Of a stretch of DNA of 62,120 nt, positions 38,357-50,894 are shown piece by piece. Within the stretch, counting starts at the first letter, position 1; each line of letters opens with the position of its first letter. The notes below the pieces were generated by a model, which had not been told where the DNA came from, ran no database searches, and saw nothing but the letters and a program-made list of their open reading frames with translations. Origin of the DNA: Ignavibacteria bacterium RIFCSPLOWO2_12_FULL_56_21 (GTDB lineage: Bacteria > Bacteroidota > Ignavibacteria > UBA10030); assembly GCA_001802945.1 (NCBI GenBank), contig MHAK01000106.1, positions 1 to 62,120 on the forward strand, read 5' to 3'. Position numbers and translations under genes: made by a program.

Positions 38357-38429
38357 CACGTCAGGAGGGACTCGAACCCCCAACCTGCGGTTTTGGAGAC
38401 CGCTGCTCTACCAATTGAGCTACTGACGT
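38357..38429 (-). tRNA. tRNA-Trp (anticodon CCA)
   Basis: A full cloverleaf is readable on the minus strand: acceptor stem ACGTCAG/CTGACGT, D-arm with AGCTCAATTGGTAGAGC, anticodon loop with CCA, T-arm GGTTCGAGTCC, discriminator G. The 3' CCA is not encoded. Lies between rpmG and secE, its usual location. Confidence 0.95.
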
Positions 38430-38523
38430 ATTGTTGTTGTGCTGCAGGCGGGGAATCCGCTGCTCCACCCAACGCGTACTCCGGTCATGCTCTGCAGCCG
38501 GCCGTCAACGGCCCGCAGCGGCG

Positions 38524-38673
38524 TTACTTGGTTTCCTTGTGCGGAGTCCGCTTATGACACCAGTGACAATACTTCTTGTACTCCACGCGGCCGGTCTGAT
38601 TCTTCTTGTTCTTCGTTGCCGAGTAGTTGCGGCGCTTACACGATGTGCACTCGAGTGTGATGATGTCACGCAT
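38524..38673 (-). CDS. rpmG: 50S ribosomal protein L33
   Basis: A 49-residue gene starting [20 protein letters not shown], with two zinc-binding cysteine pairs (CTSC at 9-12, CHWC at 36-39), the zinc form of L33. It lies between tRNA-Thr(GGT) and tRNA-Trp. In many bacteria a second tuf gene precedes it here; none is present. Confidence 0.94.
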
Positions 38674-38695
38674 GTTGGAGCCTTTCGTCCGTATC

Positions 38696-38771
<76 letters not shown>

Positions 38772-38777
38772 GGACCA

Positions 38778-38870
38778 TTGAAAATTGAATATTGTAAATT
38801 GGAAATTGTTAATGGCGCTCGCTTGCTGACTTCAACTCAATTTTCAATTTCCAATTTGCATTATACAATT
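38778..38870. repeat. AT-rich imperfect inverted repeat between tRNA-Thr and tRNA-Gly
   Basis: The spacer carries two copies of a motif around AAATTGGAAATTG in opposite orientation (left arm 38778-38809, right arm 38837-38870). Most of the 101-nt space between the two tRNA genes is made of it. It resembles simple extragenic repeats and has no coding potential. Confidence 0.6.
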
Positions 38871-38872
38871 CT

Positions 38873-38948
38873 TGGAGCGGGAGACGGGACTCGAACCCGC
38901 GACCAACAGCTTGGAAGGCTGTGACTCTACCAACTGAGTTACTCCCGC
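38873..38948 (-). tRNA. tRNA-Gly (anticodon TCC)
   Basis: Acceptor stem GCGGGAG/CTCCCGC, D-arm AACTCAGTTGGTAGAGT, anticodon stem ACAGC-GCTGT with loop CTTCCAA, T-arm GGGTTCGAGTCCC, discriminator T, encoded CCA (38873-38875). Confidence 0.95.
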
Positions 38949-38949
38949 G

Positions 38950-39032
38950 TGGGCAGGGAAGGATTCGAACCTCCGAAGGCATGAGCCGTCAGATTTACAG
39001 TCTGATGCGTTTGACCGCTTCGCTACCTGCCC
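38950..39032 (-). tRNA. tRNA-Tyr (anticodon GTA)
   Basis: An 83-nt type II tRNA with a long variable arm: acceptor stem GGGCAGG/CCTGCCC, anticodon loop with GTA flanked by CAGACT/AATCTG, T-arm GGTTCGAATCC, discriminator A. CCA is not encoded. It starts two bases from the end of tRNA-Gly. Confidence 0.95.
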
Positions 39033-39072
39033 GAGTGTTTGCACTGACGACAATGCCCACATGCAACATTTG

Positions 39073-39145
39073 AGCTGGCGGGCGGAATCGAACCGTCGAC
39101 CTGCTGATTACAAGTCAGCTGCTCTACCAGCTGAGCTACGCCAGC
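39073..39145 (-). tRNA. tRNA-Thr (anticodon TGT)
   Basis: Acceptor stem GCTGGCG/CGCCAGC, D-arm AGCTCAGCTGGTAGAGC, anticodon arm GCTGA-CTTGTAA-TCAGC, T-arm GGTTCGATTCC, discriminator T. No encoded CCA. Reads ACA/ACG codons and complements tRNA-Thr(GGT). Confidence 0.95.
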
Positions 39146-47195: not shown

Positions 47196-47244
47196 AGCGG
47201 AATACCCTTCCACACCGTGCTTGAATTCGACCATTGATACGAAC

Positions 47245-49119
47245 ATGAAGACATTGGCTCCCGGCATCACTCGAACCCGCACTTTGCTCATATCACTCTT
47301 CCTTCTCATTCCTTCATTTTCACTTTCTCAACTCAAGCCCTTCACATTCGCATTTCTCAGCGATACTCATGTTGGCAGTGGTACTGGGGCGGAGGATCTC
47401 GCGATCACAGTTGAGGACCTCAATGCGATCGATTCCGTAGCATTTGTCGTGCTTACAGGGGATATCACGGAATTCGGGGCGAACAAGGAGTTCGAAGAGA
47501 CCAAAATCATTCTCAACAAGTTGAACAAACCGTACTACATCATTCCCGGCAACCACGATACGAAATGGTCGGAGTCGGGATGTTCACATTTTGCGAAAGT
47601 GTTCGGGGCGGACCGCTTCGTGTTTCAGCATGGCGGCTACACGTTCTTCGGCTTACATGAAGGCCCGATGATGCGCATGGGAGACGGGCATTTCGCTCCA
47701 GAAGATATTCGGTGGGTCGATTCCCTCCTTGCGACTATTCCCGAACAGGCACCGCTGTTCTTCCTCACCCATTATCCGCTCGACTCCGGACTGGACAACT
47801 GGTTTGAAATGACGGACCGGCTTCGGAAACGGAACACACAAGCGGTCCTGGTAGGACACGGACATTCCAACAGAAAAATGGAGTTCGAAGGAATTCCGGG
47901 GATCATGGGGAGGTCTAACCTGCGGGCACAAGCGAAACAGAATGGCTACAACCTGGTGACGCTGCAAGCCGATTCCGCCTTCTTTCACGTGCGGCACCCG
48001 GGGAAAGAAACGAGACCCGCCTGGCATGCGATCGGACTCGGCACGCGAACATATGAGGAATCGGGAACCGCATTCAGTCGTCCGGACTACATCGTCAATT
48101 CCCAATACACGTCCGTCACTCCTGTCTGGAAAGTATCGACCGGATATACCATTACCGGCGGGGCGGCAATTGCCGGCGACCGTGTGATCGCTGGAGACAG
48201 GAGCGGCGTCGTCCGTGCATTGAACGCAGAGACTGGAAAGGAGCTCTGGAAGTTCAGGTCGGTCAACGCGGTCCTGACGACGCCCGAGGTCTCTGGAAAC
48301 GCCGTTGTGGCCACCTCAACCGACGGAAATGTGTATGCTCTCGACTTGAAGACCGGCAAAGAGCTGTGGCATCATTCGACTGGATTGCCGAATGTCGCAT
48401 GCCCGGCTATTCAGGACGAAATTGTGTACGTGGGTGGAAGCGACGGCAAGTTTCGGGCGCTTCGGCTGAAGGACGGCTCGGCGGTTTGGACGTTTGACAG
48501 CGTGAAGGCATTCATCGAAACAAAAGCGCTGGTCACAGCGACATCCGTCATCTTTGGCGCTTGGGATTCCTATCTTTATTGCCTGGACAAGGCCAACGGA
48601 TCACTAATATGGAAATGGAACAACGGCACAAACGGACGGGGGCTTTCCCCCGCCGCCGAATGGCCAGTGGCCGCAAATGGACGGATCTTCGTCGTTGCTC
48701 CTGACCGAGCTGCGACCGTACTTGAAGAGAAGGATGGTTCCGTCGTTTGGAGGTCGAAGGCACATCAGGTACGTGAATCGGCCGGCATATCGAAAGACGG
48801 GGCCCGTTTCTATGCGAAATGCATGAACGATACGCTCTTCGCCTATGACGCTGCTTCAAATGTCGAGAAACTGGTGTGGGCGACTGACTGCAAATACGGC
48901 TACGACATCGATCCATCGATGCCGATGGAGCGAGACGGGAAGGTCTTTTTCGGAACAAAGAACGGTCTCGTGTTTTGCCTCGATGGAAAGACAGGATCGA
49001 TCGAATGGACGCACAAGATCTCGAATACGATCGTGAACACAGTTGCGCCGATCGATGGCAAATCCGTTGTAGTCACAGATTTTGATGGAAACATCGTACT
49101 CCTGAGGAATTCGGACTAG
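47245..49119 (+). CDS. Exported metallophosphoesterase fused to PQQ-type beta-propeller
   Basis: A 624-aa exported protein. The ATG at 47245 is chosen since it precedes a clear signal peptide (hydrophobic LLISLFLLIPSFSLS). Residues about 30-260 form a calcineurin-like phosphoesterase with motifs SDTHVGS, TGDITEFG, PGNHDTK, LTHYP and VGHGHSN. Residues about 300-620 are pyrrolo-quinoline-quinone-like propeller repeats (RALNAETGKELWKF, YALDLKTGKELWHH, YCLDKANGSLIWKW, FCLDGKTGSIEWTH). The propeller may bind a ligand or partner; no quinoprotein catalytic residues are claimed. Substrate unknown. No obvious link to the CoA pathway around it. Confidence 0.87.
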   Translation: MKTLAPGITRTRTLLISLFLLIPSFSLSQLKPFTFAFLSDTHVGSGTGAEDLAITVEDLNAIDSVAFVVLTGDITEFGANKEFEETKIILNKLNKPYYIIPGNHDTKWSESGCSHFAKVFGADRFVFQHGGYTFFGLHEGPMMRMGDGHFAPEDIRWVDSLLATIPEQAPLFFLTHYPLDSGLDNWFEMTDRLRKRNTQAVLVGHGHSNRKMEFEGIPGIMGRSNLRAQAKQNGYNLVTLQADSAFFHVRHPGKETRPAWHAIGLGTRTYEESGTAFSRPDYIVNSQYTSVTPVWKVSTGYTITGGAAIAGDRVIAGDRSGVVRALNAETGKELWKFRSVNAVLTTPEVSGNAVVATSTDGNVYALDLKTGKELWHHSTGLPNVACPAIQDEIVYVGGSDGKFRALRLKDGSAVWTFDSVKAFIETKALVTATSVIFGAWDSYLYCLDKANGSLIWKWNNGTNGRGLSPAAEWPVAANGRIFVVAPDRAATVLEEKDGSVVWRSKAHQVRESAGISKDGARFYAKCMNDTLFAYDAASNVEKLVWATDCKYGYDIDPSMPMERDGKVFFGTKNGLVFCLDGKTGSIEWTHKISNTIVNTVAPIDGKSVVVTDFDGNIVLLRNSD

Positions 49120-49182
49120 TGAAATCCAGTTAGGCCGCGGAAAATCCACCCCTTCGCTCCCATTTACGAATAGGAGACAGAT

Positions 49183-49569
49183 ATGAAACGAGTCACTGGC
49201 ATCGGCGGTATTTTCTTCAAGGCCAAAGACGCTCCATCACTGCAGGCTTGGTACAAGCGGCACTTGGGAATCGATGTCCAAGTCTGGGGCGGAGCTGCCT
49301 TCACTTGGACCGACGCCGAGGGCAAGCCGGTTGCAGGCACAACTGCCTGGCTCATCGATCCGCAGGAAAGTAATCACTTTGCTCCGAGCTCTGCTCCCTT
49401 CATGGTCAACTACCGAGTGGAAGACCTCCACGCTTTGGTCAAGGTCTTGAAGGAAGAAGGCTGCAATGTGCTCGAGAAGATTGATGAGTCAGAGTACGGG
49501 AAGTTCGCCTGGGTAATGGATCCGGATGGAAACAAGGTGGAACTCTGGGAACCACCAGCCGGGCAATAA
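49183..49569 (+). CDS. VOC/glyoxalase-fold protein, cassette-borne
   Basis: A 128-aa vicinal-oxygen-chelate family protein. The N-terminal repeat starts GIGGIFFKAKDAPSLQAWYK and RHLGIDVQ; the second repeat contains NYRVEDLHALVKVLKEEGCN and ends in MDPDGNKVELWEP with the metal-ligand Glu. Family members include glyoxalase I, dioxygenases and antibiotic-binding proteins; the substrate here is unknown. A good Shine-Dalgarno sequence (AGGAGA) precedes the ATG. It is the cargo of the first integron-like cassette; VOC genes are common cassette cargo. Confidence 0.88.
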   Translation: MKRVTGIGGIFFKAKDAPSLQAWYKRHLGIDVQVWGGAAFTWTDAEGKPVAGTTAWLIDPQESNHFAPSSAPFMVNYRVEDLHALVKVLKEEGCNVLEKIDESEYGKFAWVMDPDGNKVELWEPPAGQ

Positions 49570-49597
49570 TGTCGCCACCTTACGAGTATCCACCGCG

Positions 49598-49657
49598 GCC
49601 TAACCCGCTATTCAACCTGACCTGCCTTCGGCAGGCCGGTTAGTAGCAACGTTAGAC
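49598..49657 (+). repeat. attC-like recombination site 1
   Basis: A 60-bp imperfect palindrome. The inverse core GCCTAAC (49598-49604, RYYYAAC) pairs with the core GTTAGAC (49651-49657, GTTRRRY). Inside, GCTATTCAACC pairs with GGTTAGTAGC with unpaired bases, and the tip is a CCTGCC-TTC-GGCAGG hairpin. Core motifs, size, extrahelical bases and position just after a gene all match attC. Confidence 0.75.
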
Positions 49658-49692
49658 CGACAAACGATCGTCAGCACCGATATCGACGCCCC

Positions 49693-49896
49693 GTGTTGCC
49701 CATGGGCTATAGATCATCACTTAGTATTTCAGAGAGCAGTGGCGGTATTACGTTGACTAGTTCTCATGATTCCAAGCCTCAAGGTATCGTTGCAAAATTA
49801 CTGTCGATCCCAATGGGGTTGCTGTTCAAGGGCGTGGCGAAAAAGGCCCTCCTGCAAGACCTCAACGATATTAAGGCCGCGGTTGAACAGAAATGA
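49693..49896 (+). pseudogene. C-terminal fragment of an SRPBCC-like protein in cassette 2
   Basis: An ORF of about 67 codons (GTG at 49693, ATG at 49702). The segment SGGITLTSSHDSKPQGIVAK followed by KGVAKKALLQDLNDIKAAVE resembles the last strand and long C-terminal helix of SRPBCC/polyketide-cyclase-like proteins, which are normally about 140-150 aa. The N-terminal two-thirds are missing and no Shine-Dalgarno is visible, so this is probably a truncated cassette gene; a small functional peptide cannot be excluded. Confidence 0.55.
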
Positions 49897-49905
49897 TCGA
49901 TTGCG

Positions 49906-49965
49906 GCCTAACAACAGCGTGCTGCGGACGGCGCTCCGCGCCGCCGCTGATGCTGAGCGTTGTCA
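49906..49965 (+). repeat. attC-like recombination site 2
   Basis: A 60-bp GC-rich imperfect palindrome starting 10 nt after the SRPBCC fragment stop. The inverse core is GCCTAAC (49906-49912). The stem is built from CAGC...GCGGACGGCGC against GCGCCGCCGCTGATGCTG with one unpaired A. The distal core reads GTTGTCA (49959-49965), conserving only the GTT at the crossover. That is expected if the last six bases belong to the host insertion site. Confidence 0.7.
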
Positions 49966-50108
49966 TTGAGCCCCGTATGGCGAATTTGAAGATTTTCCAC
50001 GATGGGCCACTAAGATGAAAACGAAGAATCACGAAGAAAGATTAGAATTCCATCCCAAATTTCCCTTGGCGTGTTGGCGGTTGAATATTAACAGGCAATA
50101 GGTTATCC

Positions 50109-50894
50109 ATGGCTCAGTACGAAACGTTGCTGTATTCGGTATCCGACGGAACAGGCACAATCACCATGAATCGTCCGGACGTCTACAACGCATTGAATGA
50201 GGTGATGAAGAAGGAATTGAACGACGTGTTCAAAGAAGCGGAAAGGGATCCGGCAATTCGGTGCATCGTCCTTCGCGGATCCGGTGAAAAAGCTTTCTGC
50301 TCGGGCCAGGACCTTAAAGAACACCAGGGAAAGAAACGGTCGTTGAAGGAATCGCTCCTGAAGAGTTACAATCCGCTTATCAAGAAGATGCGATCCATTG
50401 AAAAACCGGTCATCGGCATGATCAATGGCGTTGCGGCTGGCGCCGGGTTAAGCATTGCGCTGGCGTGCGATATGCGCACTATGGCCGACACCGCGAAACT
50501 CATTGAGGTCTTTGTGCGCATTGCTCTCGTTCCGGACTCCGGCTCGCACTGGTTCCTTCCTCGCCTCGTCGGCATGGCGCGGGCGTTCGAGTATTCCGCG
50601 CTCGGCGGAGATATCACAGCCTCCGAGGCCGAACGAGTTGGCCTTGTCAACAAAATTGTCCCTTCGGCACATCTGGAACAGGAAACAATGGAACTGGCGG
50701 CGAGACTCGCAAAAGCCCCGACAAAAACCATCGGCCTCATCAAACGCACGTTGAACAGATCTCTTGCCTCTGACCTCGATGCGCTCCTCGAGTACGAAGC
50801 GACGATCCAGGAAATCGCTTCGCAATCGGAAGATCATAAGGAAGGCATAGCGGCGTTCCTGGAAAAACGACCGGCTCAGTTCAAAGGCATTTGA
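50109..50894 (+). CDS. paaG: Enoyl-CoA isomerase (PaaG-like, ring 1,2-epoxyphenylacetyl-CoA isomerase)
   Basis: A crotonase-family protein (261 aa). The first catalytic Glu of hydratases is replaced by Ser (AAGAGLSIALACD), and an acidic residue Asp143 sits in the VPDSGSHWFLPRLVG motif, the pattern of PaaG, whose Asp converts 1,2-epoxyphenylacetyl-CoA to the oxepin form and isomerises double bonds later in the pathway. The CoA/oxyanion block is AFCSGQDLKEH. The ORF is preceded by a 143-bp space after the integron cassettes that holds only simple extragenic sequence. Confidence 0.85.
   Translation: MAQYETLLYSVSDGTGTITMNRPDVYNALNEVMKKELNDVFKEAERDPAIRCIVLRGSGEKAFCSGQDLKEHQGKKRSLKESLLKSYNPLIKKMRSIEKPVIGMINGVAAGAGLSIALACDMRTMADTAKLIEVFVRIALVPDSGSHWFLPRLVGMARAFEYSALGGDITASEAERVGLVNKIVPSAHLEQETMELAARLAKAPTKTIGLIKRTLNRSLASDLDALLEYEATIQEIASQSEDHKEGIAAFLEKRPAQFKGI

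Follow-up and report, generated by a model that had tools for sequence, protein, structure and literature searches.

Two integron cassettes probably inserted at a secondary site in an Ignavibacteria genome

The 62,120-nucleotide stretch of contig MHAK01000106.1 from Ignavibacteria bacterium RIFCSPLOWO2_12_FULL_56_21 (the whole stretch is called the window below) raises the question of how two units resembling integron cassettes came to lie between ordinary chromosomal genes. The units occupy the interval between a metallophosphatase/PQQ-repeat gene (47221-49119, with its stop at 49119) and a paaG-like enoyl-CoA hydratase gene (start at 50109), and each consists of a plus-strand open reading frame (ORF) followed by a 60-bp palindrome. 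A preliminary description, made from the sequence alone, had proposed that they are cassettes with attC-like palindromes that spread outside an integron into an aromatic-degradation locus. That label for the locus is fair, as the neighbouring genes match PaaG/PaaH/PaaF-type families, with scores below the equivalog cut-offs. The analysis reported here indicates that the two integron cassettes were very probably inserted by an integron integrase at a secondary, attG-like G^TT site.

Layout and limits of the insert

The coordinates and cores given in the preliminary description all agree with the sequence. From left to right, the interval reads G^TTAGGC, an intact VOC/glyoxalase-type gene, attC1, GTTAGAC, the remnant of an SRPBCC gene, attC2 and GTTGTCA. 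The cores are GTTAGGC (49129-49135), GCCTAAC (49598-49604 and 49906-49912), GTTAGAC (49651-49657) and GTTGTCA (49959-49965). The crossover points lie at 49129/49130, 49651/49652 and 49959/49960, and the insert comprises 830 bp (49130-49959). At its left edge, GTTAGGCCGCGG is the exact 12-nucleotide reverse complement of CCGCGGCCTAAC, which is found at 49593-49604 in attC1. The last core departs from GTTRRRY after the GTT, where its bases are of recipient type. The features are as follows.

49119..49129, no strand: left junction, with the metallophosphatase gene stop at 49119, recipient DNA up to CCAG, and the crossover G^TT at 49129/49130
49130..49651, plus strand: cassette 1, from TTAGGC to AACG, 522 bp, with its cores read in the sequence
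49183..49569, plus strand: VOC/glyoxalase-type gene, 128 amino acids, intact frame, GGAG ribosome-binding sequence upstream, PF00903 match with E=1e-6
49598..49657, plus strand: attC1 (R'' GCCTAAC to R' GTTAGAC), 60 bp, found by covariance model R1
49652..49959, plus strand: cassette 2, 308 bp, limited by the GTT of attC1 and the GTT of attC2
49693..49896, plus strand: remnant of an SRPBCC (PF10604-type) gene, similar to intact relatives in the genomes G148 and G238
49906..49965, plus strand: attC2 (R'' GCCTAAC to GTTGTCA), found by R1, last six bases of recipient type
49959..49971, no strand: right junction, G^TTGTCATTGAGC in the sequence, sharing no target-site duplication with the left flank

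Each unit has the layout of a cassette, with one ORF, on the same strand in both, and an attC directly downstream (the VOC gene with attC1, the SRPBCC remnant with attC2). The proposal of two ORF-bearing units therefore stands as to the plus-strand ORF and the attC that follows it, but the second ORF is a truncated remnant and not an intact gene. No transposase or repeat was seen at the edges of the insert, and neither a terminator-like T run nor a sigma-70-like signal is present at the cassette pair. No attI or intI remnant was seen next to the pair, which thus lacks the adjacent intI and attI of a complete integron. The cassette region has no DNA match in E. coli genomes.

In two genomes of the same family but another genus (G011 and G012), the metallophosphatase stop and the paaG-like start are 2 bp apart, with no cassette. 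Because the flanking genes are adjacent in these relatives, 49130-49959 is an insert between them. The corresponding interval of the congeneric genome G001 (L052:4050-6036 and L036:1-690) contains unrelated DNA with HTH, Fic-domain and ICMT-like genes, and the contigs break there; the site seems to be tolerant of insertions. The intergenic sequence of the window is thus not one that these relatives share without cassettes. If the insertion was precise, the empty site would read CCAG^TTGTCATTG (...CCAGTTGTCATTG...), that is, GAAATCCAG joined to TTGTCATTGAGCCCC.

Identification of the attC sites

Both palindromes are attC sites. They were evaluated with two models, each trained on sites outside the window. 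The first is an end-anchored weight matrix derived from 21 sites (class 1 integron plasmids and environmental arrays); on the two strands of the 62-kb window, its threshold is exceeded only at 49598 (43 bits) and 49906 (13 bits). In leave-one-out scoring, real sites give 4 to 61 bits, most of them 24-60, a range that includes attC1; the low score of attC2 is due to its last core. The covariance model R1 was built from nine attC sites of 57-64 nucleotides only, a limit adopted because the palindromes of sites that differ more in length do not align properly. Its E-values are rough, as the calibration was shortened. R1 matches attC1 at 49598-49657 with 48.3 bits (E=1.2e-9 in the window, 6.4e-8 genome-wide) and attC2 at 49906-49964 with 36.5 bits (E=9.5e-7 in the window, 5.1e-5 genome-wide), and these are exactly the two sites that the preliminary description had reported; the next-best match in the window has E=0.83. 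An Rfam search of the window returned tRNAs only, and no attC match.

The bottom strand of attC1 folds clearly better as DNA than expected (z=-3.8, with none of 200 shuffles as good), and single-strand folding favours the bottom strand; the fold of attC2 is less clear and is weighed below. Over 67 nucleotides, attC1 is 81% identical to an attC in class 1 integrons of plasmids, among them the Enterobacter plasmid OW849520. IntI is predicted to recombine attC1 through its bottom strand, and attC2, with its mismatched right core, much less.

On a megaplasmid of Cupriavidus necator (L182:3998-4060), an attC-like site that is 84% similar to attC2 has the right core GTTACTG. This site is perhaps another end of a secondary-site insertion.

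The VOC gene as a travelling cassette

The VOC gene is rare in its own phylum, being found at E<=1e-45 in 4 of 198 sampled genomes, the window's genome included. A scan of 84,980 species genomes with its protein yielded 533 relatives, of which the best 80 have 78-95% identity and, from their record titles, belong to at least 12 phyla. No relative of the protein was found in viral contigs and none, by sequence, in PDB. Phylum labels undergo 36 changes on the gene tree, which is weakly resolved, versus 43.6 when they are shuffled. The gene shares 93% nucleotide identity with a Terriglobia copy, and the ratio of nonsynonymous to synonymous substitution rates (dN/dS) is 0.05-0.2 in the 15 computable pairs. 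These comparisons mark the gene as one that was transferred and then kept.

The best 80 loci (L094-L173) were compared with flanks of up to 4 kb to either side. Within this DNA, an attC on the same strand is present at 27 loci; the remaining 53 have no R1 match, a number that is possibly too high, since R1 was trained on short sites, long or decayed attCs may escape it and some contigs are short. In a Holophagaceae locus (L121), the VOC gene is flanked by attCs within a long array, and in Rubrivivax (L153) it directly follows an attC. Another locus, L127, has a full attC after the VOC gene and appears to be the genome G027 of the window's own family, the coordinates and score of their integrases being identical. 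Among 12 searched genomes whose VOC locus lacks an R1 attC, 6, the L127 genome included, have a full integron integrase somewhere.

The edges of similarity were compared among 32 loci that keep the leader; since a match to GTTAGGCCGCAG was the basis for choosing them, their register is fixed in advance. Upstream similarity ends at the GTT in 51 of 128 pairs (offset -1 or 0), and the left edge at 49130 is the commonest end point of similarity among VOC copies in other phyla. Downstream, similarity among the copies ends mostly within or just after the inverse core. These limits are the edges of a cassette, and the VOC gene is a real cassette gene. Its presence in attC arrays of other phyla, with similarity edges at the same GTT, adds support to the earlier suggestion of cassette spread outside an integron. 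In the window, the gene is oriented as its neighbours are, so its expression would depend on read-through.

A broader reading is held only tentatively, and we lean somewhat against it: the VOC gene may be a pan-bacterial travelling cassette whose many insertions, for the most part outside integrons, have placed it at ordinary chromosomal sites across at least 12 phyla. Purifying selection would then have maintained the gene as its attC decayed, and the window would be a case in which both attC sites are still readable. It is possible that most lone VOC copies come from integrase-mediated insertion outside integrons. The breadth of the VOC cassette across phyla could be new.

The SRPBCC remnant

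The 67-amino-acid product of the second ORF has no match in Pfam, NCBIfam, plasmid, viral or PDB searches. It is 66-69% identical to the C-terminal part of intact 148-149-amino-acid genes in G148 and G238, and these relatives match PF10604, above the Pfam cut-off in G148 and below it in G238. The start of cassette 2 resembles the upstream DNA of the intact G238 gene (L191); beyond it, the window sequence resumes only at about codon 90. The remnant is thus composed of the 5' leader and about the last 60 codons, with an internal deletion of about 280 bp. Cassette 2 is accordingly a relic, unless the 67-amino-acid ORF gained a new role. Presence in cassette arrays elsewhere was seen for the VOC gene, whereas the SRPBCC gene is without such a case.

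Integron integrases in the genome and family

The genome (3.36 Mb in 138 contigs, 95.1% complete) has no TIGR02249 match over the cut-off, in the window or elsewhere, so the integron integrase of which the preliminary description saw no sign in the window was not found in the assembled genome either. The best partial TIGR02249 match, a 147-amino-acid recombinase fragment on contig C85, was rejected as an intI remnant; it is without the integron-integrase insertion, and its best score is against an IS91-associated integrase. Genome-wide, R1 finds one further good site (C85:567-649, minus strand, 40.7 bits; L033), which follows an M20-peptidase gene and a seemingly frame-broken ORF. This site is possibly another lone cassette.

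Full integron integrases are present in 10 of 32 genomes of the family, and attC-model matches likewise in 10 of 32, several of them without a detected integrase. These observations make an enzyme acting in trans plausible. Few attCs turned up in a strict pattern scan of the family's intI contigs. One contig binned with G001 (L032, G001:C42), which is GC-rich and 9.9 kb long, has several attC-like palindromes and the look of a cassette array, and it may be foreign.

Origin of the cassette pair

We infer an integron integrase as the acting enzyme and the following order of events. The integrase would exchange the folded bottom strand of the attC of a circular cassette at the G/T of a recipient GTT, the target being a non-integron G^TT in the DNA after the metallophosphatase gene and upstream of the paaG-like gene. 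The cassette would supply TTAGGC at the left, and the right core would retain the recipient TTGTCA. The pair may have arrived as a single circle bearing both cassettes or in two steps. The enzyme would have been supplied in trans, its gene being on a plasmid, in a chromosomal integron since lost or in sequence that the assembly lacks. Later, the gene in cassette 2 would have decayed by internal deletion, and the VOC gene would have kept its intact frame. A secondary site is distinguished by crossover at G^TT, a last core with bases from the recipient and the lack of a visible attI, and the pair shows all three.

Several observations weigh against insertion at a secondary site. The exact empty site is absent from the genomes compared, none of which is a close strain. 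Removal of the insert would leave 159 bp between the flanking genes, versus 2 bp in G011 and G012, which implies other changes at the locus since the split from these relatives. The bottom-strand fold of attC2 is weak (z=-1.6, with 15 of 200 shuffles as good), as is expected if its outer stem lost a partner to the recipient-type right core. Also, the incomplete assembly leaves room for an integrase elsewhere.

The pair might instead be the last remnant of a chromosomal integron at this locus, from which intI, attI and other cassettes were deleted, and thus a CALIN (a cluster of attC sites without an integrase) produced by decay. Integrons do occur in the family and cassette 2 is itself decayed, but such an origin is unlikely. 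The left edge is a clean GTT, 10 bp past the metallophosphatase stop, and two relatives have the same paaG-like gene next downstream of that metallophosphatase gene; no trace of attI or intI was seen; and beyond its GTT the right core no longer fits GTTRRRY, which is what insertion into ordinary DNA would produce. It is more improbable still that the cassettes arrived inside some larger element, or through homologous recombination with a genome that already had them at a similar place, with no direct integrase action in the lineage. The foreign-looking HTH and Fic genes in the G001 interval indicate that insertions are tolerated there; however, the insert begins and ends at cassette crossover points, and its edges are without transposase, repeat or target duplication. 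That the palindromes are ordinary intergenic hairpins, such as terminators or repeats, that resemble attC by chance is scarcely credible: attC2 alone folds only slightly better than shuffles, but the E-values of R1, the absence of a terminator-like T run, the direct similarity to an attC of class 1 integrons and the role of the VOC gene as a cassette gene elsewhere all argue otherwise.

The right flank was also considered as a dispersed repeat, and this was dropped; recurrence in the genome is limited to about 49990-50040 and excludes the junction. That stretch of the window (49990-50040, around CACTAAGATGAAAACGAAGAATCACGAAG) is a dispersed intergenic repeat found in more than 10 places in the genome. 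Elsewhere in the window, five clustered tRNA genes (38357-39145, minus strand) are ordinary.

Relation to known systems and implications

Clusters of at least two attCs without an integrase are known as CALINs (PMC9024848), and single attCs without an integrase as SALINs (PMC12690207). With two attC sites, and no integron integrase found in the window or the 95.1%-complete genome, the cassette pair is a CALIN by the IntegronFinder definition, whose default threshold is two (PMC9024848); the flanks of the pair, in addition, argue for insertion. Two-cassette CALINs located away from ilvD in Xanthomonas (PMC12444791) likewise occupy a non-integron chromosomal locus in the absence of intI. Unlike the window pair, they are common to a whole pathovar and are read as a sign of ancestral integron activity. 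The OW849520 attC differs from the window pair in belonging to a complete integron with an integrase and resistance genes (blaIMP-13 and aac(6')-Ib3).

Off-target recombination by IntI1 occurs at GTT triplets (PMC10127599). Secondary-site cassette insertion goes back to Francia 1993, as reported by citing papers (PMC10127599, PMC12901181, PMC12444791), and insertion at attG sites is established according to Loot 2024, as cited in PMC12901181 and PMC12444791. The window pair is a further case of this already known process. As in those insertions, cassettes with attC lie in ordinary chromosomal DNA without an attI, the crossover is at G^TT and the last core contains bases of the recipient. In contrast, cassette insertion at non-integron sites has so far been studied mostly with one enzyme, IntI1, in laboratory hosts, whereas the pair is a natural two-cassette case from an environmental lineage without a detected integrase. 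Every crossover point in it can be read, and it records the outcome of such insertion in the wild.

The VOC family has 533 relatives in at least 12 phyla, some in arrays and others seemingly alone, with similarity that ends near the crossover and the inverse core. It could thus serve as a single-gene data set for the rate at which cassettes leave integrons and become chromosomal genes. If the pan-bacterial reading of the VOC gene is true, integron integrases would steadily convert single metabolic genes into ordinary chromosomal genes across phyla.
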